Shown in pieces: positions 2,968 to 45,700 of a stretch of DNA of 64,000 nt. This DNA comes from Branchiostoma lanceolatum. Lineage: Eukaryota > Chordata > Leptocardii > Amphioxiformes > Branchiostomatidae. Numbering within the stretch: the first letter of the stretch is position 1; every line of letters starts with the position of its first letter. The notes beneath the pieces are model-generated. The model worked only from the letters and a program-made list of their open reading frames with translations. It ran no database searches and was not told the DNA's origin. The DNA is taken from NCBI RefSeq assembly GCF_035083965.1, contig NC_089735.1, forward strand, positions 13,948,501-14,012,500, written 5' to 3'. The position numbers and the translations under genes were made by a program.

Positions 2968-5900
2968 TTAGTAGACTGGCCCTCCGTCCTGGCGACTTTT
3001 TTTCTGCCGTGGAGTGAACAACACGCAGCGCTGTAGGTTCTTCCAGCGGCGTTTCCCGGCAGACTTTGTAGGCTTCAGGTTGTTCTTTGCGATGTAGGTC
3101 CGCAGGAACGCCCGGGCACCGGTGGCTCCTCGCTGTATGTCCATGGAGAGAAAATGGTCAGTGTCTCATATGAATATCTTCAAGAGATCTTAGAACTGAA
3201 CCATCTTGTTGTCACGGTTTTATGGTTTAAAATATGGTAACTCCAGTTTCTCGTTTGATCACTGACACTCCCATTCCACTGGGGCGGCGACCTCGAGGCG
3301 ATCTAGCATTTCATAGATATACAAATTTCATAGATAAAAAAAAATATTTGTACGCGTTATGCGTTTTGTTGTTTTTTTAGTTATACCTTTAAATTTTGCA
3401 TGATATTCTAACTATGAAATCAAGGGTTAGACAAATCCACTTTTAGTCACAGCGAGAGCGCATGCGAGATCGACGTCTACAAAAAAAATGAGGGCCTGAC
3501 GAAAGACAGAGGTAGCTGTCTGAAACGTCTATTTCCAAATTTCATCCATTTGCTTATCAAATAACGATGAATTGCTCAGATTACCTTGAAGAGGAACATT
3601 TTATCCTCGTCCTCCAGCTGAAAGTCTGTTGTCTTCACGTAGTCACTGTCCACTCCGATACTCCTCTCAATGTCGTCAACCTGAAACAATTAAAGCCAAC
3701 CATGGATTCCAGTGAGTTGAATGACAGAAAAAGATGGCTGTGGCCGAGGCTATGATGACTCGATACAGTCATGTCGATTGCAGTACAATACCATAGTTAC
3801 CCGGTTGTGTAATTTGTGTTTTTAATTTTACAACCGTTAATGATTAAACGAACCACAGACCTTGACTCGTCGGTGTAGTCTTGGGACTTATATGTGTTTT
3901 GCTACGGTCGCATTTGCACCGGGGCACGTAAGGGGGTGTAGTCCCGACAGGGCCCAGAAGACACAAATTTGTCCCAGTAGATACGGGGGGTACCCCACGG
4001 TGCTCGCACGATTAGCTCACGGTGTCTATTTGTTGCCGGGCCCTGCGTTGATTTTATCTCCATGTTAAAAACTTCCGGGGACCCGACCGTGTCCAAAAAT
4101 AGCGCAGGTAGCCGCAGGGTGCTCTAAGGGGCCACGTATAAGGGTAACACCCGAAAGTGCAAAATAATAACAGCCCGTGAACTGCCCGACAGGGCCCCTT
4201 TTTGGCGAAGCTTCAGGAGCGAGCTTATTCCAATTGTGACCTAAGCATTTCCCTACGCACCTTGCGGTACACCTTCTTCCCGAGGACTCCCAGGAGATCC
4301 ATGTACTTCAGGGTGTAGTCCGTGAAACTGGAGACATGCTTCCTCTTCTCCTCCATACTCCGTGTCAGCCAGCTGAAGCCTCTATTGGTAAAGAACTCGT
4401 GAACCTCCTGGAATGTCAGCTTTATAGAGGAAGAAAATATTTCAGTAAATAAAAGATACTGACAAAGCCATTTACTTAAAAAAGACAGACATTGGACCTC
4501 GGAGATTGCTACAAACAGTTACCAGACTCTCTAGGTCGCTGGAAAAATAGAAGAAATTGTCCAAATATACTGAATGATCTGCCAAAAGAGGTAGATGACT
4601 ATAGCAATACAGTTTGCAACTCTAGTTTGCAAAACTGTACTCCCATGGCCGGCTCACTCCTTTGCATGATTTTATCATTCAGTCTATTTGTCCAATTTCT
4701 ACTTCTTTTCCAGCAACTCATGTTTTAACAGAGACTAACACTGGTTAAAGCTCTTGATAAGTCTGCGCTGGCTGAAAACATTAATAATATTTACATAACG
4801 CAACATTTCCACAAGAATCAATAAAACGTGAAACATATATGAATAACATCAGTGTAAGATATATGTATGTATGTACATGTAACTGTATGTTTGTATAATG
4901 TATGTATGCAAAGTATACTCTCCAAGCAGAGGTTTGGATCCGGCTTGTTATTGACGTCATTTTATGCGCTTGGCTTGGCGACATAAAGAAAATAGGACAA
5001 ACTAGAAAGCCAGACAGAAACGCTTAACCCTATCTAGACCGGGCTCTTTCGACCCCCCCCCCCCGTCATAACTTCCGAACGGTATGCTCTATCATCTCCA
5101 AATTTGCAGGGAGTGATGTTCACGTAAAGTTTTATAATTTCTGTAATTTTGGTGACGTCATGACGTAATATGACGTAATTATTACGTCATCGATGTGATT
5201 TTATTGGCTAAATAGGGAATTCCCATAATATCTAAAAGTATTAGACAAAATAGTGCGTATTATTGATTCAAAGGTATGCCAAGACATTTGACGTCAGTGG
5301 TGACTAAGTTGACGTCAAAAGGACGTCGAAGAATAACGTCATGTGTTGTTAGCGACCCCCTGGGATCCGCCATATTTGATCGGCCATTTTGAAATTTTTC
5401 AAAATACATTTTTTCCATGTATGATCCCAAATAACAATGGAAATAGACTAAAAACATTAATCTGAATGTTTCTGGTTAAGAAAATTCCAGGTTGTGACGA
5501 ATTTGAAGGAGAAAAAGCCTGTTTATACCGAAAATAATGATTTTGTCCGCCATCTTGGATTTTGATGACGTCATCAAATTAGCATAATTTATGAATATTG
5601 AATCATGACAGTTACATAAAATCACATCTGATGTTATACATGTAGGAAACTAGTCTGGTTGAGCAAGAAAACATTGGAAACAACTATGTTTGAATCGAAA
5701 ATAGGGAAATTTGCATAACATGCCTCTTCAGAAACCCGTCGCCATGGCAATACGAAAAATGATAAACTTCTACTTTTATCATAATATTGTTGCCAACTAA
5801 ATTTTAGGAAAAGTCACCAAGTTTGGTTGTCCTACCATACGTTGTTTGGCAGTTATACGATGTCAAAGTTGGCGCGGGCACTTTTAGCCCCCCCGGTCTA

Positions 5901-7316
5901 GATAGGGTTAAAAGGACAAAAACAAGCCGGAGTCGAACCTCTGCTTGGAGAGTATACTAAGTATGCAAAATCCAATGTAAAAATCAAAGACTTTTCCATC
6001 TTTGTCGGCGTCCATTTGATCGAAGAGCTGGTCTACGGAGTATGCATCCCCAAAGAGCTTCTTCTTTTCGCTGTCAGTCAGATAGTTGTTTCCTGCCTGT
6101 GAGAAGAAGATTATGTTTCAAGTGTCAAAACGTCACGTCAAACAGCCACGTCAAGACGCCACGTAAAAACGTCACGTAAAAACTTCACGTAAAAACGTCA
6201 CGTAAAAACGTCACGTAAAAACGTCACGTCAAAGCGTCCTATGACATTGCGCACCAGGCGACCATGATTGTTCTTTCTTCTAGTTTCATTAGTTTGTTCT
6301 AGGTTCTATGTTTTTCGTTCATTCAGACCCTTGTAGGGGCTAGTAGCACACCATCTAATCTGTATCTATATAGCCGGTTACTGCCGGTATAAGCGCCACT
6401 CGGCGTAACACATGTGCACCATCATGATGGCAGCAAGTTTCCTTGCTGTTGCAGTATCATAGTGCATGTTTACTGAGGAGAGATATAGGTAGCTCATTTC
6501 CCCTTTAACGTGCTCGAGGCACTTACTCGAACAAGGGACCCACATTTTATGTCCCTTCCGAAAAACGAGTGCAGCGGCAACGGAGATGTCCTGACCCAAG
6601 AATGAACCGGGGTCTCTCATCCAACAGTTGATGATATGCATAACTGGAGTTCGGTGACCTCATACCTCCATGACATGTTTTGAGCTTTTGTAAATTTTAT
6701 GAAACTGACTTATATATTTCCATAATTTATGCATGGTGATCACCTTAGTACACATATAAGAAATATAACAATCCTATCACTCATCACTAAGCGGTTTTTC
6801 CATATTTGTGCTGAAATATGTGAAAGCGTCTGACGTAACCATAATTATGCAAATCAGCTCCTTATTTGCATGGTTGACATCTGTTTATGTTCCACCTGTC
6901 ATGAATTACATATGTTACAATTATTAAGTCCAGTTATGGAAAACAATAGAATTACATAATTTCCTAATTAATCATGCAAATTAAGTCCTCATTTGCATAA
7001 TATATATCTAATTATGTACATCTCTGCCTAAGCTAGCCGCGTGCGTAAAATGATGGAAATTCTTATACCTCTGTAAAAGCGCCGTGCAATTCCTGTCTAC
7101 TGACAGTCGCGGTGTGGTCTTTATTTTGGCCCTTCAGACTTGTCAGGAACTTGTCGATCAGCCCCCGGATTTTCTTCCTGTTCTCCATGGCCTCGACTGT
7201 TTCAACGGCCCTCTTGTCTTCATACGCCCTGTGAATATTGGCATATTTTGTATTTAGTTCTTAGCTTTTATTCAGGATTTCGCACATAGTATAGATATTC
7301 ATGTGTGTGTGTGACG

Positions 7317-7372
<56 letters not shown>

Positions 7373-7615
7373 ATATGTAGCTGTGTGTGTGTGTGTGTGT
7401 GCTATGGTTACTTAACAGCAGTAAAAACATCACTACTGCCAGCTAATCATCTATATGTTTACATACATGCAGCACGAATGTTTAGCGTAGTGTGCCCATG
7501 ATTGAATGTGTCTGGTTTTGTGGGGATTAGCGTGGCACTGTATATGTGCTTATACGTGCTTGACGGTGTAAGAGTATAGAAAACATTCAACAATACCATG
7601 CCTGATTATTGTGCA

Positions 7616-7655
<40 letters not shown>

Positions 7656-10600
7656 GTATAGCGAGAGAGCGTGAAGCTTTCCTCACCTGGCTGCCTCAGT
7701 GTCAGGTCTCTTCTTCTCATACAGTCTTTCCTCCTGCGTCAGACGATCACAGAGAACTTGCTGGTACTGTTCAATGTCGTCGTCAGAATACTGGTAAATG
7801 AAACACGATTGGACATCGTAAGATACCCAAATCATGAACAGACCTTCTATTATGTTCTACTTCGGCCGGACCCCGAAGCCACAAATTTGTTCCGGTGGAC
7901 TGCCGGGTACCGGAAGAGTACCTCCCGGTGCTCGCACGATTAGCTCACGGCGTCTATTTGTTACCGGGCCCCGCGTTCAATTTAAGTCTGAGTTAAATTG
8001 ATTCGGGATCCCGGCCGGGCCCAAAAATAGCCCGGCAACGGCAGAGTGTCCCACGGGGCCAGGTATGGGCCACGCCCGAAAGTGCAAATACCAGCCCTTG
8101 TACTACCCGGCGGGGCCCCTATTTCAAATTGGGACCAAAGCATTAGTAATGCAGCCCTCATTCAGGTCATAACTTGTTACGTAAGACTGATGAAGTCAAA
8201 TGTGAATGTACATTGATACGCACCAGCATGAGTCCGATCGTTTTGGGGCTTACGGGCTCGAAGCGGTTGGAACGGTGCATACTCCTGCTGAGGTGGGCCA
8301 GGTCATCCAGTCTGCTGAAGAACGAATCGCCTTCCTCCATGGAGAGCCACCAACCTAGACAACAAACAGATTCACGGTGTTTATTGTAAAGTTTTGAGCT
8401 TTGATCCAACACAGATGAGCTTTCATTCGAAGATTCACCGTGTGATTCACACTTCGCAGTATGAATGAAAAATACTCTTTGTACACAACCAAGTGTTTTA
8501 CTCTACGGACATTTTGGTGACCGTCTGTCACAATACGCCAAAAAGCAATTACTCAAACAACTGGATATGATTTTGGAAACGGTCAGACGTTTCAAGTAGC
8601 ATCCACTACTTTTCGTCAGTGACTGTGAGCAAGATCAGTTGAACAGCAGGTTTATAACCACGAACTATGAATTGATATGCAAATAAGGAGAAGACAAATT
8701 TTTAGAAGTCCAATAGAAAGCGAATTAGACAACTCAAGACGAGGTTGAAGTAAAAGGGGACAATAGCTCCTATTGTTTTGATATAGGAGCTAAAGCTGGT
8801 TTGCCCCCAAGGCTATGTCCCAATTTAGCAAGTGCCAGACAGTTCCACCCTTAGCCCTCCTTTCCTGTTGAGGGTTGGATTGTATATCCTCTCATATATT
8901 GCCTCCCTTACTCCACGTTCGAACCAGCGGGGTTAACCGCTACTCGTCGGCCATTTTCCACCACATAAAACACAACCAGGGGCACTCGTTCAAAATAGAA
9001 TCCACTGATATCCTTGACCGCGAACCCCGCTGGTTCGAACGTGGAGTAAGGGAGGCAATATATGAGAGGATATACAATCCAACCCTCAACAGGAAAGGAG
9101 GGCTAAGGGTGGAACTGTCTGGCACTTGGGACATAGCCTTGGGGGCAAACCAGCTTTAGCTCCTATATTAAAACAATAGGAGCTATTGTCCCCTTTTACT
9201 TCAACTTCGTCTTGAGTTGTCTAATTCGCTTTCTATTGGACTTCTAAAAATTTGTCTTCTCCTTATTTGCATATCAATTCATAGTTCGTGGTTATAAACC
9301 TGCTGTTCAACTGATCTTGCTCACAGTCACTGACGAAAAGTAGTGGATGCTACTTGAAACGTCTGACCGTTTCCGAAATCATATCCAGTTGTTTGAGTAA
9401 TTGCTTTTTGGCGTATCTTATTACCTGGATGTCTAATCTTCATCGACGTGTCTGTCACAATATTTTTCTACAAACCGACAGGGCCATCCAAGGAAAATAA
9501 AGGTTTCTACTACTACTACTTCCTCACAGCAATTCTGACTGGTTCACATTGCACTACAGCTCAGCTAGGTGTCTCTGCCTATCTGAAATACAGTGCAATG
9601 CGAACCAGTCAGAATTACACTGAGAAAGGTAACAGACGGTCACCGAAAAGTCAGTTGAGTAAAACTTTTGGTCGTGTACAAAGATACATTTACTCAGGGA
9701 CTTACAAACTTGATGAAACTATTCACGGAGATTCATTATCCTTCAAAAAAGGTCTGAAACTTCCAACAGCAAAGAGAATAGTGTCACAGGGTGTTTAAAG
9801 CTTTTTCAGAATGCTGTTACAGATGTAGCAGAGCTAGAAATATGATTTACTTCAAAGGTCAAATGCATTTTGAGTCAAACAACGACACGGCATGTACCTA
9901 CCATCGAAGGAGTGGAGTGGGTAGTTACAGACCACGCCCCCGTCAACGTAGAACTCCTTATGTCCATGGTAATCAGTCAATACAGGCTGGAACAGTCCTG
10001 GTCAAATACAACCGAAGACCATATAGTTTATAAAGTATCAATCTGTTACTTGTAGTGGATACCTTGGGTTCCAATCTATCATAATCAATATTTCAAGTTT
10101 ACGGGACAGATTTAGATGCAATGCCTTTAACACCCTATTCTGTAGATAAAGTGTTTGGTACTCAAATCGTATACCTGACACCCCCAGACCAGCTAGTTGT
10201 ATAGTATATCATATAGGTTATGGTGTTTTCTATTTGTACGGACTTTTCCAACAGATTATGTATCAATGAATACATAATCAAACGACTTTTTACAGAATTC
10301 CGCTTGTGGTGAATTACACTACGTGAGTTTGTAAAACAATTTAATACTCGAGCTCACTAAACCCGTGCAGACCCTACCCATGTTTTCCCTATACGTATAC
10401 ATACCTCCTTCATCGTGAATATTTTTGGTATAAATGAGGTCGAGGGTTGATAAGCACAATAAGAAGGCGACTTGTTGATAGGATATAAAAGAACACATTA
10501 CAAGACAAGTTTTTCTTATAACCCCTGAAATTATTTTTGTAACCTAACTTTTGCCAGGTCTTGCCAAATATATAGTATTCAGCCATAGGCTGAGGTTGTT

Positions 10601-13600
10601 TAATTCAATTAACTAATCAATTAGAAAATAGAGGGTCACCTGGGGAATTTTGTAGAATACTGAATGCTTTTTAATGCGCACGATACTTGTGGGTACTTTA
10701 TCGTATAATGTAATAAGTATTCATTTTTGCTTCCTAAAATCATCATCTATTCGAAAATAACTCCCCCTCTGGACTTCAGAACTTCTTTGAATTGGGAGAG
10801 AATTCGAGAAGTTAGTACGTAAAAAAAAGAAGCCCAAACCTGGAATCGACATGGACATCCTGACAGCCTTACGGATGGGAAGCTCGGGCGTGGTTTTGAC
10901 GTGGCAGTATTCCTCCGTCATCTGGTCCAAGTTGGTCACCACGATGCAGAGTTCTATTCCACTCATTTTGTACAACTGAAATTATACAAGACTGTTCATG
11001 CCATTTCATTTCGTCATTCTTTATGCTTTTGTGTGAATGAATGAATAAAGAAATAAACAAAAACAAGTTGATGATCATATGTATTTCTCACTCTCCAAGC
11101 AGAGGTTAGGCTACGGCTGGTTTTTAGACGTTTTTGTTGGGCTTTCTATTTTGTCAAGTTTTCTTTTTGTCCACCAGTCGAAACGGACAAAAGGAAAACC
11201 TTACAAAATAGAAAGCCAGAAAAAAAATCGTCTAAAAAGACGTTAGCAACAGTCGGATCCTAACATCTGCTTGGAGAGTAGTTATTTCTTACAATAGCGT
11301 TCCATACTGGTGGAAAACTATTTCATCTGTCCAGAACTGCATAGTCAATTAAAGAAGGACATCATATGTCACAACAATCATAGTCATACAAGCCTGATCA
11401 CCAGTCTCTACGGGTCGGTTTAGGGGTGCGTGTTTCACCAGGCCCAGTCTGCATTCTACAATGATACGTTTCTGTCAGCCTGTCTTCTTATCTAGCATAT
11501 AGAGTTTCGCCGCCACCTTCGGAAGCGAAATGATTAGGCCAAGCCCGTAGACCCACCCCCGAGCAGGCTAATCTGTCTGGGCGGGCGGGCACCACTCGGT
11601 ATGGTTTTCAGGCTATAGGCATACCTGCTTGAAGGTGACATCGGGGTTTCCGGGCCGGCCATCCTTACGTGTGAACTTCTCCAGAATGCCTCCAAAGAAC
11701 GCGTAGAACCCGTCACCCGTTTCCCAGCCGTACCGCCAGTACAGGTTGACGGGTTTGACTAGGGTCTGTAGGTATCCTCCTGTATAGATACGTATGTATT
11801 GGTGATTAAATCTTCAATATACTGTTTAAGTTAACAATTGTGAATGGCATTATCGATTATTATCAATTATGATAAGTATAGAAGAGGTGGGCCTAGTATA
11901 AGCTATATACGCTTTTCCCCTCCTCCTGAACCTATTTCTATCCATTGTTTATCGTATTATATATGTAACCTGGTCTGGCTATGTTCAGTTATAACCTTCC
12001 CGTGGAATGACTCCTCCTGGCGAATTGTTTATCCTGGAGTCCAGCCTTGTTAGCTTTGGCCCGCGGTTAGCGTACGTTGGGAGCTGGCCAAAGCTAACAA
12101 GGTAGCCTCCATAGCCGGCTCTACCGGGCCCTTTTTTTGGGGGGGGGGGCTTATAATACACCTTTTGTAGCCAGCCCGTAGCCATCAGCCAGACTGTAGC
12201 AAAATGGTTTCAGGCTGGCTGATGGTTACGGGCTGGCTGCAAAAAGTGTATTATGAGCCCCCAAAAAGGCCCGGTAGAGCCCGCTATGGAGGCTAAACAA
12301 GGCTGGACTCCAGGCTGCAATTGTTTCCCTTTTTGCCGAATTTCACTAGACGTACCGCCATAGGAAGGCCTAGTGGAGGGCCGGCTAGGCAAACACTGAC
12401 ACTATGTACATACCGGAGATGAGTATCTTGCCCAGATCTACGTCCGCCTGTTCCGCCACATCCGCACAGCTCAGTCCCATCGCCACGAACGTCGCAGTTA
12501 TGGCTCCCGCACTCACACCGGCGACTCTTTTGATGTTCTGCAGGATTCCGGCAGACTCCAGGACCTGAAAATACAGAAAATACAGGCCTGTTTATGAAAA
12601 TTCATGTTTAACAATAATATAATATTATGAATGGTTTATTTGACATTGCACACAATATATCACACTAGCAGTCAAAATACTGAATTGTGGTGAGGATACA
12701 TGAATTGTTGAATAGGCATAAAAGCTGGCTTGGTCGACTTTGTGACATTGTTTGTTTGCATGCATAGTTGTAGAAGACCTTACAAAAGTCGCTGTACTTT
12801 TGATGTGTCAAAAGATTGCATTGCATGAAAGCAGATTTATGTTGAAAACCGTTTGAAGACAAACGTAAGTTTAAGCATGATTTAACCAAGGTTTAACCAC
12901 TGGAAAAGTTGTTATAGGTTATTGTTACATTTCTATCGTTATATATTTTCATTTCATTTTATTTACATTCAAAAAGACGCAAAGTGCTTATTTGAATCCT
13001 CTACTCATAGAATAACAAAATGAGAACAATATCAACAGAAGTGAACTAATGATTACAAATTTAATGTAAAGCACAAAAACAGTTGTCAGGGTGTCAGGTT
13101 ATGTTAAGATATATATTTCAAATCTATGTATAATTTCCAGTGGGAATAAGATGAGAGTTGACATGGCGTTGCAATACTGTGAATGCATTTACAAGTAAGT
13201 TCGCGTGGTTTTTATTTCGCGATAAGGCGAAAATGGAGTGTTCGCGGTGGTTTTTAATTCGCGGTAGCGCTATGGTCACATACTGCTAGAGTATTGGACA
13301 TAAATGTTTGTGGTGGCTTTAATTTTGCGGTGAAACGTTCGTACGGTCGCCGCGAAGACCGCGAACATAAAACCACCGCGAACATTTCTGCATTTACAGT
13401 ACTTACCCGAAGCGCCCCAACATACGCCACTCCCCTGGCCCCGCCTCCCTCTATGACCAGGTTCTCAAACGGGAAGTCATAGTTTCCGAAGTTCTTGTCC
13501 TGTGGATCGTCTATATCAGTCACATCCAGTGGTGTCTTCTCTTCTTGTGAGTAAAAAATCCCCATTCTGTAGGGCCTATGGGTGAGAGAAAAAGGCAGTC

Positions 13601-14506
13601 CATTCCTGACCATCTGGTATTTATTCCACTTTGTACTTTTGTTAGGAACTTCCCAGTTGTGTAATATGTACTTTGATTTTCTTTCACCTGTGTACATTTG
13701 ATATGTCATTTGATTGCATTATTTCATTAGTTAATGATTATTTAGTCTGTTGGTTTTCCTTATTTACTTATTTATCTATAATGATTACCTTTTTTGTCTG
13801 ACTTTATTTACTTTAGTTTAATTGATATCATGATGTAATGTATAGTAATCAAGGGGAAACCCTGGCCAGCAAGCCTTGAAGATTTCTGGTTTCCCCTGCA
13901 TGTTTTTATTTCATTTCATGTTCATTTACTGTTCAGTTATGTTAAATTTTACGTGTGAATAAACAATAAACATTTGTCACGGTTAACGTAACGTTAGCGC
14001 TACCAATTTGACACCACGTACTTCATCATGTTTTTCTAACTCGCACGATTACTAGTATCTTTTAAAGAAGCTGCCATTAAACATTTCTTTGATAATCAAA
14101 ATATCTATAGAGATTCGAGGTTTGAAACATTTACCAGTTTTAGGAAGTTTTAATACAACCCAGCGACCCCCCCCCCCCCTCGCCTACGCTACATTTTCAC
14201 ACGTCAAAACATTATTTTGAAATTGACACAACATTATTTTCTTCAATTCTCGTCAAGCAAGCGGTGAGACAAACATAGTAACTTTAGTACCATTGTCTCT
14301 TTTATCTGTAGACTACTTTGAACAATTTATGTGCATTTTCTGATCTATGTTCTTCAAGTAGGGCGCTAGAAGGAGAAAGACTCAAGTGGACGATAATGGG
14401 TAACCCAAGCACTGCTCTTCATCATAGACCTCAGTATGAAGACATGTTAGCACGGCGTTAAACAGACGGAAAAATTAAAAAAAAAAAAAACTTACAGACC
14501 GTGCAT
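2968..14506 (-). CDS. Patatin-like phospholipase with C-terminal EF-hand (13 coding exons, 545 aa)
   Basis: Exons, 5' to 3' on the minus strand: 14496-14506, 13407-13575, 12414-12564, 11625-11779, 10840-10975, 9902-9997, 8224-8354, 7687-7790, 7069-7228, 5992-6096, 4261-4419, 3585-3680, 2968-3132 (TAA). All phases join and the total is 546 codons. Patatin hallmarks: oxyanion loop GGGARG (residues about 47-52), nucleophile elbow GVSAG (Ser about 78) and catalytic Asp in DGG (about 226), so the Ser-Asp dyad is intact. Patatins hydrolyse acyl esters of phospholipids or neutral lipids. A canonical EF-hand loop DADKDGKLTFQE (about 400-411) spans an exon junction, and a degenerate partner may lie just before it. 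The tail is basic (KSAGKRRWK). No signal peptide is seen, so it is probably cytosolic and possibly Ca2+-responsive (inference). The start is chosen because an 11-bp first coding exon beginning AACAATGC joins in frame; an internal ATG at 13565 is the alternative. Confidence 0.9.
3496..3529 (+). ncRNA. Candidate minimal hammerhead ribozyme motif
   Basis: The sequence reads CTGACGA (core CUGANGA), A, stem II AGACAG with complement CTGTCT around a 6-nt loop, GAAA, then CGTC with the cleavage-site type GUC. Every invariant hammerhead core position I can check is present. Helix III would be minimal (AC/GU), as reported for ribozymes of Penelope-like elements, and the flanks give little helix I pairing. 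It lies in the last intron of the patatin gene, on the strand opposite to transcription. Probably a solo retroelement end. Confidence 0.45.
3860..4200. repeat. Dispersed GC-rich repeat, copy 1
   Basis: Shares long stretches with 7855-8120, including GCTCGCACGATTAGCTCACG, a CGAAAGTGCAAA block and a terminal GGGGCCCC-type segment. Both copies lie in introns of the patatin gene in the same orientation. The internal GGGCCC-rich segments are partly self-complementary, which suggests a non-autonomous DNA transposon. No coding content. Confidence 0.6.
4912..5958. mobile_element. Inverted-repeat transposon (CTCTCCAAGCAGAGG family) interrupted by another element
   Basis: Ends are terminal inverted repeats, AGTATACTCTCCAAGCAGAG at 4912 and its complement ending at 5958. 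Short internal parts (4912-5023 and 5912-5958) flank a complete second element at 5024-5911. The empty host element would therefore be only about 160 bp, matching the 190-bp relative at 11090-11279. Lies in an intron of the patatin gene. Confidence 0.7.
5024..5911. mobile_element. TTAACCCTATC-ended inverted-repeat element, copy A (888 bp)
   Basis: Begins TTAACCCTATCTAGACCGGG and ends with the reverse complement type GGTCTAGATAGGGTTAA. The interior has a C-run and several TGACGTCA-like blocks and no long ORF. A second copy, in the opposite orientation, is at 29513-30429, and a deleted relative is near 34680-34790. A non-autonomous MITE is the most likely class. Confidence 0.75.
6123..6236. repeat. 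13-bp minisatellite, consensus ACGTCACGTAAAA
   Basis: About eight tandem units of roughly 13 bp, the middle ones nearly identical. Each carries a palindromic ACGT core. Located in the patatin intron just upstream (in transcription) of the exon at 5992-6096. Confidence 0.85.
6370..7060. repeat. Dispersed repeats in a patatin intron
   Basis: 6378-6640 resembles 55280-55410 (GTGCTCGAGGCACTTACTCG-type block, then a CCTTCCGAAA stretch and a GGGGTCTC block). 6660-7040 is AT-rich with several ATGCAAAT and ATTTGCAT blocks and matches the family at 62300-62930. No coding potential supported. Confidence 0.55.
7301..7404. repeat. (GT)n microsatellite
   Basis: An interrupted GT-dinucleotide tract of about 100 bp, within the patatin intron between the exons at 7687-7790 and 7069-7228. 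Confidence 0.95.
7617..7654. repeat. (GTCT)n microsatellite
   Basis: Nine to ten tandem GTCT units ending about 30 bp downstream (in transcription) of the 5' splice site of the exon at 7687-7790. Confidence 0.95.
7855..8120. repeat. Dispersed GC-rich repeat, copy 2
   Basis: Same family as 3860-4200, sharing GCTCGCACGATTAGCTCACG and the CGAAAGTGCAAA block. Ends near a GGCGGGGCCCCTATTT segment. Intronic. Confidence 0.6.
8582..8623 (-). ncRNA. Candidate hammerhead ribozyme motif (left arm)
   Basis: Reverse-complement copy of the motif at 9326-9367, in the left arm of the fold-back. It reads on the minus strand, which is the same strand as the patatin pre-mRNA, so it could be transcribed within that intron. 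Confidence 0.5.
9326..9367 (+). ncRNA. Candidate hammerhead ribozyme motif (right arm)
   Basis: GTCA (helix I), CTGACGA, A, stem II AAGTAG/CTACTT around a 6-nt loop, GAAA, C, GTC, then TGAC closing helix I by 4 bp. All invariant core residues are present and helix III is minimal. An identical motif lies inverted at 8582-8623. Confidence 0.5.
10200..10800. repeat. Dispersed repeat shared with 20727-21060 and 36060-36290
   Basis: Shares blocks such as CAGCCATAGGCTGAGGTTG, TTTTCTAATTGATTAG (as complement) and CTGCACGGGTTTAGTGAG (as complement) with two other sites. Orientation differs between copies. Its end abuts the patatin exon at 10840-10975. No ORF. Confidence 0.6.
11090..11279. mobile_element. 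190-bp MITE of the CTCTCCAAGCAGAGG family
   Basis: Starts ACTCTCCAAGCAGAGGTTAG and ends with the matching inverted CTGCTTGGAGAGT. The interior is itself partly palindromic. Intronic in the patatin gene. Related ends occur at 4912/5958, about 34999-35150, 37371-37466 and near 37640. Confidence 0.75.
12025..12322. repeat. Inverted repeat (fold-back), about 300 bp
   Basis: Left-arm blocks CCTGGAGTCCAGCCTTGTTA, GGGCCCTTTTT and CAGCCCGTAGCCATCAGCC recur as complements on the right side in reverse order, with the centre near 12195. Lies between patatin exons 12414-12564 and 11625-11779. Confidence 0.7.
13177..13399. mobile_element. TA-flanked MITE (CTGTAAATGCA ends) touching a patatin splice donor
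   Basis: Terminal inverted repeats of the type CTGTRAATGCA and TGCATTTACAG are flanked by TA at 13175-13176 and 13400-13401. The interior has TTCGCGGTGGTTTT-type blocks in both orientations. Relatives are at 25195-25374 and 49678-49886. The element begins four to five bases after the exon 13407-13575 donor, so the last bases of the GTAAGT donor overlap the TA flank. Confidence 0.85.
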
Positions 14507-21060: not shown

Positions 21061-21552
21061 ATTTATGCCAAAAATATTCACAACTAGACTTCTACGACTT
21101 CATACCTTCGCATTACTCTGTTAAACTTTATGACTAGCGTATTACGACGAGATATGAAAAAAAAGTTCTGCTGCAGTACCGTAAATAGCCGCTATGAGGT
21201 TCATTCTCGGCCTGAACCTTCGTTTTATCTGACACCTACCCCCTACACAATATCATAAAGACCATCTGCTATGAACATCTCTAGTTATGCCGTCTACGAA
21301 CACACATAAACACGCATACTCACAACCACACATGCAAATAATAGAAAATACTGTATAATCTTCTTGACAAAGGCAATAAGATATTTCACAGCATAAACAT
21401 ACAAAGCGAACCTATAAATATCACACCCGTATTCTCTACCAGCAAAGACTGCGATCGCGATCTCTACCGATAGAATTGCAGCAAATATTAGGTGCGTGTG
21501 TGTAAGTTTTGTGATTATTTTTTAAAGGCTCTATACCCTTTCTTTCCCCCAG

Positions 21553-22296
21553 TGGTCGTCTAGCCAGAAGCTGTTCGTGGCGTATCGTGTGGTGTGTGCC
21601 GTCTTCACTCTTGCCATTCTGATCTGGAGCGTCCCTACAGACAGCAACAGGTGGATCACCTTCTACTCCAACTGGGTGTACTCCACTCTTACCCTCCATT
21701 TCTGCTGGAGCGCGGTCGTCTGTCTACAGGATTACCGCAAAGCCGCAGGCCATGAAGGGCCCTCGGAAAGGACACTCTACATCGGTTGGGTGATATACGA
21801 CATGGCAATGGCCACGTCGTTGACAGTGTCGGCTGAATATTGGTTTTCTCCCTGGCCTGTGACTATAGGCCTTCGTAGTATTCTCCGCCACGGGTTGAAC
21901 TCGCTCATGGTTGTGATTGACCTGTTGTTGTGCGGGTTTCCCTCACGGTTGAACCGTGTGGTGTATCCCGTGATCCACCAGGGTGCCTACTGCGTATTCG
22001 TGGTGTTCTACTGGTTGGGTGGGTTCCGAGGGTACGGCGGAAAACAGTACATCTACTCTTTTGCGGACCTGAATACAGTCCCACTCCAAACTGTGATCAT
22101 CATGTCTGGCAATACCTTCTTAGTCATGCCGGTGTTCCACGCACTGGTATGTGCCTTGTATCGGACACGTTTGAAACTACTGAAGAAGTTCAGAAATATA
22201 AACACTTACGAACCTCCAAAAGGGATGCCAATTCAGACTTTAGAGACAGAGATCGTCAACGACAAGATTAAGGAAATCACTGTTACCCAGGTCTAA
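21553..22296 (+). CDS. Rolling stone-like multipass membrane protein (last coding exon)
   Basis: A polypyrimidine acceptor (TTTCTTTCCCCCAG, ending 21552) is followed by 247 codons to the TAA at 22294-22296. Frame choice is set by the open frame beginning WSSSQKLFVAYRV. About six hydrophobic segments are visible, including WVYSTLTLHFCW, WVIYDMAMATSLTVSAEYW, GLNSLMVVIDLLLCGF, GAYCVFVVFYWLGGF and a final one ending LVCALYRTR. The block HGLNS, then VVYPVIHQGAY, then YWLGG and QYIYSF is characteristic of the Rolling stone family (a Drosophila relative is needed for myoblast fusion). The C-terminal tail is polar. One or more upstream exons with the usual Cys-containing N-terminus must exist; I could not identify them. 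An internal start is unlikely because no in-frame ATG opens the exon. Confidence 0.85.
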   Translation, partial: WSSSQKLFVAYRVVCAVFTLAILIWSVPTDSNRWITFYSNWVYSTLTLHFCWSAVVCLQDYRKAAGHEGPSERTLYIGWVIYDMAMATSLTVSAEYWFSPWPVTIGLRSILRHGLNSLMVVIDLLLCGFPSRLNRVVYPVIHQGAYCVFVVFYWLGGFRGYGGKQYIYSFADLNTVPLQTVIIMSGNTFLVMPVFHALVCALYRTRLKLLKKFRNINTYEPPKGMPIQTLETEIVNDKIKEITVTQV

Positions 22297-42700: not shown

Positions 42701-45700
42701 CCCCGGAATAAACATACCCCCTGGAAAATGACCAAATTGACACATAAACTGTGTCCATGCTAGTGATGCTACTAATCTGTCCTCGGGAAAGGAGATGATA
42801 AGCAGGTAGGTTCTTTTTATTCGTTTATGCCTGATTTACTTATTGAGATTTACCACATTTGTGGAAAGATTGACATAACAGGTGACTATCACGTTTTCAA
42901 GATGTCAACCCTGACTAGACTGTATGGTTTGATACACTCACACTGGGAAGGACCCCTACTCTTTGTAACACTTAAATGTATAGTAAGATGCAAAATTTTT
43001 GGAAAAATTGGGCATAGGTTCCCCGCTATGACCCCTAACCAGGGGTGAACGGTGCTTTCAATTTTCAACAAGTGAAAATGTACATGATACATGCATTTTC
43101 TACTTGGAAATTGAAGCAAGTGATCAAGGAAAATTGTATAAAGTGACATCATCAAACACAAGTAGTCGCCAAACTTCTCAGTTCACTTCACACCTTCAGA
43201 GTCTACTCTGTTTTCAGATATGTATCAACGTCTAGAAAATTACTGAATATATGCTCAGTGAAAGTATTACTTATTTGTAGAAGCCATACAGAAAAGGAGG
43301 AACTTGCCATTTATCGTGTCATGCATTGCATATAGAACAAAATCACATTATAATATATTATATAATGTTAAGGATATTATCATATATTGTCCTTGGTTCA
43401 GTGTTGTTGCTATCCAAATAATTTCAAATCCAAAAATTAGCCTTGTATGTAGAAAAAAAACTTTCATTTTGAGAGACTAAATTGTCAACAAATTTGTCAA
43501 TTAGATACCTCAGGCCTGTACAATGTTGCAACATGGAGGTTTGGTGGCAACAAACCACAGGGTTCTCATGTTACACATCAAAGGGCCTGTGAAAGGGTGA
43601 GCCAGACAGTAACCATGGTAGCGGCACCAACACAGTAAGGGGCGGGGCTTACACCCAAAATTCTTGGAAAGCCTGGGCACTCTCTCTGTAGAGGAGTGAT
43701 CTTTTTAAAAGCATTTTTATGAGATAATAACAGTGACTAGATTGCAATCTAATTTTGTGTATAGACTTTACTATGGAAAATTATTTTTGTTAAATTGTCA
43801 TGCACATTTCTGACTGAGGCAAAGGAGTTTTATTTATACTTATTATAGATCAAAAAAAGTTGTTTCCCCTTCTTCAAGGTGAGCTCTTCCATGTATGAGA
43901 AACATTCCCACGGAATATCACTGCCATGCGTCTTTACTGTGGCGATTTTCGAAGGACTAAATGTACATGTTTGTGGTAGGATTTAAATGTTCTAGTATAT
44001 TTTTAAAGTGATTATACAGTTTCTAATGCTAAGACACAATTTTTACAAGGTGTTGTTTTTAGATTTTCAAAGTTTTTGGGAAAGGCTGTATTTTAACCTC
44101 CTTGATCTCACGTGAGTAATCTTACATGTGTTAACTTGAAACACTGTGCGCCGCTGGCATATACATGTAATTTCTTTTCTGATCAGCGTGTTTGGTTTAC
44201 GATCTAAACAGAGACTGTCAAAGTTGTTTATATGAAAAATACATTTCAAAACTTCAGTGTGCTGTCTTATTTTCTCCTAATAACAATGTTACTTTGTAGC
44301 GAGATCGACGGATATGTTAGTACCGTCAGGGTTTCACAAATGTCGGGTCATTGTATCGGCGGGGAAATCCACGTCATTTGGTCGAATTATAGCGATTTAG
44401 GAGCAAAAATATCGGGGAAATATGGGGAAAAAACTAAACTTTCGACATAAGGGGGATCTCTGGTAAGCAAAGCCCCGATGGATTTTCAAAAAAACAATAA
44501 ACGTACCGTCCAAAATAAGAACGTACTGGGTGGATTTTGAGGCTGAAAAAAATAAACGTACCGGTACGTTTATTTGGGAGATGAGAGTAACTCTTTTTGA
44601 TCAGTGTGGTGGGTTCTTTTACGTGCTCAAGATGTGACTCTCCTGATACTTGGGACCTCTATCCAAAGGATGTCCCTAACCAAACCTAGGTACTTGTTTT
44701 CACCTGAGTGAAGTGAGGAAATTCAATGACTTGTAAAGTGCCTTTCCCAAGGACATGTAACATCAGAACATGTCAGGGAACTCGAACTTAAGAAATCTGG
44801 GCTCTTGGCCAAACACCATTAGGTCATGCAACGCCAAGTTTCTTCTTTGAAAGCAAGTACAACAAACCAGTGGCTGTGTTTCTTTAATTCTTTTAACACA
44901 ATGTATTTTAAAAATGTAATATGAATGCTGACACAGAGCAGAAGCCTTACCTGTGCTAAAGACACCATCAACCTTTGGAAGTGGCCAGACGTGTCATCGA
45001 TAATGTCCTGCTCCAAGTTTTTGTTGTAGTCTGTATGGGTCAAAGAGGAGAAAAGGAAGTTAACACTCAAGTACTGTACAGTCATAGGCATAGCACAGCA
45101 CATAAAATAAACACAATCTACCCTTACCAAAAGGTACAGCTAAATCAAAATCGTGTAGAAATATATCCCAAAAGTGCATTGAAGTATGTCACTTTGAGAC
45201 TGAAAAATGCATGGTTTTACTGTTTACATTATCCAAACTGTTCATGATTACTGACTGAAGGGCTGTCTCCAGCTTTCAACTTTTATGTCCTTCTCATTGT
45301 TTGGGAGCCCATGTTGGTGATTTTTGTTGTTAAATCTGTCATTTCAAACTTACAAATATACATTTTTGTCAGTTTCATATCATGAAATTCAGATTTTTGG
45401 ACAGATGGGGTGAAATTTTTGTATGTACCAACACGCAACGTTCTATCCCTGGCAGAGGTACGGATCCTGGAGACCGAATACCGAATGGAACAACGCAAGA
45501 AAAAGATCAGAAAAAGGAGCACACCTGAGTTATAAGCCATCCTGATTTCTGCTAGCTCTTGGTTCGTCCGTGTGCTTAAGATTTCTATCAGCACTTTCTC
45601 ATCAGTTCCCAACCCCTGGAAAAGCAAAATAGTTGACCAGTAACTACATTTAAACGGAATAATCCTCACAACTTTTACAAACATGTTAACATTTCAAATT

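Follow-up and report, generated by a model that had tools for sequence, protein, structure and literature searches.

A predicted ExoU/VipD-like patatin of Branchiostoma lanceolatum with an EF-hand region inserted within the enzyme

INTRODUCTION

Among animals, a Ca2+-regulated phospholipase A is usually taken to be either cPLA2, which has a C2 domain, or sPLA2, and patatin-type enzymes are called Ca2+-independent. The described systems closest to the gene analyzed here belong to the Pat_ExoU_VipD_like family, whose VipD (4kyi, 4akf) and ExoU (4akx, 3tu3) structures stand at the top of our PDB rankings and resemble the lancelet protein in motifs, in profile match and in the theme of control through the C-terminal part. 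According to the portions of PMC5127104 available to us, the C-terminal part of ExoU mediates its activation, VipD was reported to be without phospholipase activity with its motifs present, and the family includes proteins of sea urchin, sea anemone, Trichoplax and Florida lancelet. As far as these portions describe them, animal members of the family are already known; the new element is the EF-hand insert that we describe below, which, together with an intron-rich gene of animal type, distinguishes the lancelet protein from VipD and ExoU. No paper on an EF-hand form of patatin was found among open-licence full texts, and eukaryotic domain databases may already list the architecture.

The gene lies within a 64,000-nucleotide stretch of Branchiostoma lanceolatum DNA that was analyzed in full (the window). 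We estimate a probability of about 55% that its product is an ExoU/VipD/PlpD-like phospholipase A that would be Ca2+-modulated through an inserted EF-hand pair.

RESULTS AND DISCUSSION

Gene structure and catalytic motifs

The predicted gene runs on the minus strand from 14506 to 2968, where 13 exons join into a single frame of 1638 nt (545 amino acids and a TAA stop) with GT-AG borders at 12 of 12 introns. GC content is 53% in the coding exons (68% at third codon positions, GC3) and 40% in the introns. The start codon is uncertain: translation may begin at M1 in exon 1, of which 11 nt are coding (14496..14506, with the ATG at 14506-14504 and the first in-frame stop 41 codons 5' of it), or at M8 in exon 2 (13407..13575), where the protein would open with MGIFYSQ. 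Beyond this N-terminal part, exon 2 also encodes the oxyanion motif GGGARG (aa 47). The nucleophile elbow GVSAG (aa 76, with Ser78) follows in exon 3 (12414..12564), the patatin core continues through exons 4 (11625..11779) and 5 (10840..10975, with the SMSIP block from aa 203), and the DGG motif with the predicted catalytic Asp226 falls in exon 6 (9902..9997). Exon 7 (8224..8354) carries a TIGLML block, and there the first part of the bacterial-type domain ends.

Pfam Patatin (PF01734) matches aa 43-238 over positions 1-190 of its 191-position profile (E 1e-27, 98 bits against a cut-off of 27.7). Ser78 within GxSxG and Asp226 within DG[GA] supply the patatin dyad, and when the window domain is aligned with 25 bacterial rows (26 in total), 19 columns do not vary; these include the oxyanion glycines, GxSxG and DGG. 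At block III, which the same portions of PMC5127104 give as ASxxxP in bacteria and AAP in eukaryotes, the window protein has SMSIP (aa 203-207), an SxxxP form with M replacing the preceding A and without AAP; the consensus of the bacterial rows at this block is ISMSIP.

When the window protein was compared with the PDB, VipD (55.8 bits), ExoU (51.7 bits) and PlpD were among the best matches, and iPLA2-beta was absent from the 60 best of 91 matches. With a profile of the 26 rows, window included, the scores were 117.6 bits for VipD, 99.7 for ExoU, 91.1 for PlpD, 58.3 for CapV and 21.8 for iPLA2-beta; a 33-row bacterial profile without the window gave a near-identical order (VipD 115.6, iPLA2-beta 19.0). 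In both profiles iPLA2-beta (PNPLA9, 6aun), which shares the patatin domain and to our knowledge has no EF-hands, was the lowest-ranked patatin and the only animal patatin listed among the solved structures. Judged by these PDB scores, the protein is closer to ExoU and VipD than to iPLA2, as expected of a Pat_ExoU_VipD_like member. From its sequence we class the patatin domain as ExoU/VipD/PlpD-like, a type known chiefly from bacteria. Two narrower assignments were rejected: the top NCBIfam hit, to an effector model, has 70 bits, far under its cut-off of 1000, and the PADLOC matches are confined to generic phospholipase effector models at 28 bits or less, which gives no ground for membership in a defence system.

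The preliminary description of this locus, made from the sequence, had found a canonical EF-hand loop to share one frame with GGGARG, GVSAG and DGG across 13 exons and had judged the patatin closer to bacterial types. Both statements agree with our results, the second in that VipD and ExoU score far above iPLA2-beta, the one animal PNPLA compared.

Intact motifs do not prove activity, given that VipD is reported inactive despite having them. On that precedent, known to us from portions of PMC5127104, the protein could be a catalytically silent patatin whose role is to bind membranes or proteins in a Ca2+-dependent way. We consider this improbable, given that its catalytic motifs are intact and common to the 25 bacterial rows.

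The EF-hand region as an insertion within the enzyme

A profile built from 39 bacterial ORFs without the window, hand-picked from a core group that had itself been selected for likeness to the window, matched the lancelet protein in two separate parts. The first covers aa 38-293 (model 13-246, 193.1 bits), and the match resumes at the same model position with aa 425-503 (model 246-324, 31.1 bits). Between them, aa 294-424 scored -0.4 bits with this profile, which is not significant. Taken by themselves, the C-terminal 125 aa scored 34.9 bits against the profile, compared with 5.9 bits for the best of 1000 shuffles, and in pairwise comparison with single bacterial ORFs the C-terminal block reached a best E of 3e-10 (composition correction off). 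The alignment with which this core group was fetched covered aa 1-294 of the window protein and left out its C-terminal block.

The insert spans exons 8 to 11, all on the minus strand. It begins near aa 294 in exon 8 (7687..7790) with what appears by inspection to be a charged linker, continues through exon 9 (7069..7228) with a degenerate EF loop and exon 10 (5992..6096) with the first half of the canonical loop (DADKDGK), and ends near aa 424 in exon 11 (4261..4419), which supplies the second half of that loop (LTFQE, to aa 411) and the start of the C-terminal patatin block. Exon 12 (3585..3680) encodes the block found at the C-terminus of bacterial patatins (DDIERSI...TTDF), and in exon 13 (2968..3132) the block ends near aa 503 and is followed by a basic tail and the stop codon.

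Where exactly the insert entered is uncertain. Global alignment locates it, with a length of 150 aa, at model column 221 instead of 246, and at column 221 the bacterial proteins also vary in length, by up to 55 aa; column 246, the position given by the profile, is favoured by KTIGLMLYSDDDIE, which matches the bacterial block keTLGlrldseeeie. Since the global aligner puts the window insert at 221, inserts were counted over columns 205-300 in place of 235-265. On this count the window protein has an insert of 150 aa, and none of 128 other patatin ORFs exceeds 55 aa, a length reached at column 221; these ORFs have 111 distinct cores and include rows from viral contigs and from other subfamilies. 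The bacterial patatins represented by L004-L062 (most of them 285-395 aa long) share the whole domain with the lancelet protein, including the C-terminal TTDF block, and PlpD (5fqu) shares by profile the core only; the long insert sets the window protein apart from the bacterial rows.

Because the bacterial profile resumes past it at the same model position, the EF region (about aa 294-424) lies inside the enzyme and is not a tail; as far as sequence comparison reaches, it is an insertion within a protein that is whole in bacteria. A tail fusion of two domains was rejected on the same ground, namely that the bacterial domain resumes downstream of the EF-hands, and the resumed match also makes it very unlikely that the patatin and the EF-hands belong to two separate transcripts. 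The preliminary description had spoken of a patatin fused to an EF-hand region some 170 residues later. One protein does hold both domains, and the canonical loop does lie 174 residues past DGG; the split profile match places the EF-hands within the enzyme, not joined behind it.

A related explanation is that the gene model is a chimera, with patatin and EF-hand exons drawn from separate genes. Portions of PMC4967905 argue that, when lancelet gene models show new combinations of domains, errors of prediction are the probable cause, and the exon 10 donor (AAA|GTCTTT) is poor, at the 44th percentile among all GT on the same strand of the whole window, where the remaining 11 donors reach the 88th percentile or higher (by a donor scoring table). 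This weak donor splits the canonical EF loop. Around it, 1 of 45 junctions that are frame-compatible and stop-free yields an EF loop, and it is the one in the model; the EF-loop reading is to that extent specific, and use of that splice site is not thereby established. The C-terminal match past the EF-hands in one joined frame (34.9 bits; best of 1000 shuffles 5.9) counts against a chimera, as does a tblastn search of the window with the 545-aa protein, in which the sole matches were the gene's own exons, with no tandem copies of the gene in the window. We judge a chimera very improbable.

The EF-hand pair and its putative role

Pfam EF-hand_1 matches aa 392-417 of the whole protein at 26.1 bits (cut-off 25.4) and scores 30.0 bits on a 148-aa piece consisting of the insert and short flanks. 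The canonical loop DADKDGKLTFQE (aa 400-411), which we take to fit the EF-hand ligand pattern, is preceded by the degenerate second loop NKDHTATVSRQE (aa 353-364), and the pair model EF-hand_7 falls just short at 29.0 bits (cut-off 30). Calmodulin and the calcium-binding protein 2jnx share the canonical loop; in the window protein the loop is embedded in a lipase and its partner is degenerate. A loop-pattern search for EF-hands in 84 ORFs of the bacterial relatives returned six matches in five ORFs, which by eye were judged to be due to chance, and on this pattern search we rejected the idea that the bacterial relatives already had an EF-hand.

An EF-hand module within an enzyme suggests a calcium-switched lipase. 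In the mechanism that we propose, the metal-free Ser78-Asp226 dyad would hydrolyse the acyl chains of membrane phospholipids, with the TIGLML block before the EF-hand pair and the C-terminal block after it. Ca2+ bound to the canonical loop would move the C-terminal block with respect to the catalytic core, and this movement might raise or lower activity or membrane binding. With M8 as the start codon, the protein would begin with MGIFYS(Q) (13540-13590, minus strand), which fits the N-myristoylation motif and would be a candidate for a membrane hold; we put this step forward with less confidence than the others.

Against Ca2+ modulation stand the EF loops, only one of which is canonical, the pair model, which stays just under its cut-off, and the poor exon 10 donor. 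The EF-hand insert could instead be a structural element or a docking site in an enzyme that is Ca2+-independent like other patatins. The patatin dyad requires no metal, and the degenerate loop and the sub-threshold pair score speak for such a role; the canonical DADKDGKLTFQE, by contrast, lies between the two enzyme parts, where a Ca2+-driven movement would be felt. We regard a structural or docking role as an unlikely but serious alternative to a Ca2+-modulated phospholipase A.

Should Ca2+ modulation hold, an EF-hand pair inside a patatin would add a third route by which Ca2+ is coupled to lipid release, and it would give the ExoU/VipD-like family in animals a function that can be tested. 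More speculatively, an old bacterial-type patatin, of a family best known for injected membrane-destroying effectors, may have been taken up by early animals and placed under Ca2+ control by the inserted EF-hand pair, possibly with a myristoyl anchor. The result would be a Ca2+-gated membrane phospholipase outside the cPLA2, sPLA2 and iPLA2 classes, a combined proposal that we hold doubtful as a whole.

Relatives and origin

Searching prokaryote genomes with an alignment of three rows yielded 303 relatives. We retained the best 80, to which the patatin domain has about 25-42% identity (tblastn). Eleven plasmid records matched. There was no match among phage records and no matching family in PHROGs, and in viral contigs the search for full-protein relatives gave four pattern matches, none of them confirmed. 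Bacterial-kind patatins occur in 1 and 23 viral contigs under two alignments of the window domain with bacterial rows (the 23 being L110-L132), with a largest insert of 34 aa. A viral source was rejected, as phage records, PHROGs and viral contigs held no confirmed full-protein relative.

In the trees the window protein was represented by residues 38-300 only. A quick tree of 75 rows comprised the window, 61 of the 84 ORFs in the first sets and 13 of 21 from nine genomes; the 23 ORFs of the first sets left out by eye were near-copies, ORFs with long extra parts, L001 and L003. The window row fell within a 46-row group (SH-aLRT 97). In a careful tree of 63 rows, from which 12 further rows had been dropped, it stood beside six Chloroflexota rows (95/92) on a long branch of 1.8. 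AU tests rejected neither an arrangement in which the window lies outside a clade of the 41 bacterial core rows (p 0.243) nor one that unites the window with four other patatin rows (p 0.148). Horizontal transfer from bacteria is plausible on these comparisons.

A recent bacterial transfer, or contamination of the assembly, is a different proposition. The relatives found are bacterial, partly by construction, as the sets searched were prokaryote together with viral, phage and plasmid sequences. Against it stand the 12 introns, an identity of at most about 42% to the best 80 of the 303 relatives, and the family members in four animal groups listed in portions of PMC5127104. One of the four, that of Trichoplax, may belong to a rickettsial endosymbiont, whose patatins fall in the Pat1 group, a kind other than the ExoU/VipD-like one, according to the part of PMC3688537 available to us. 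We consider a recent origin extremely improbable: the animal family members and the 12 introns here suggest that such genes have long resided in animals, wherever they first came from.

Intron elements and neighbouring features

Several repeats accompany the gene. Intron 10 contains, about 39 nt from exon 10 and outside the protein, an element with 17-nt inverted ends CTCTCCAAGCAGAGGTT (4918..5952, no strand assigned), flanked by similar GTATGCAAA stretches; its 17-nt end recurs at 11091 and 37645. In intron 6, a near-perfect long palindrome (8533-9416) has arms of 291 nt (99%) and, further in, arms of 106 nt (100%) separated by 88 nt, and is probably a mobile-element or hairpin insertion. Just 3' of the stop codon lies an inverted repeat with 163-nt arms (92%; 2444-2919). 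Elsewhere in the window, an ORF on the plus strand (21526-22293) has a rolling stone (Rost) domain at 63.7 bits, and an annexin repeat on the minus strand (45286-45693, 36 bits) is probably part of an annexin gene, encoding a Ca2+/phospholipid protein about 30 kb away.
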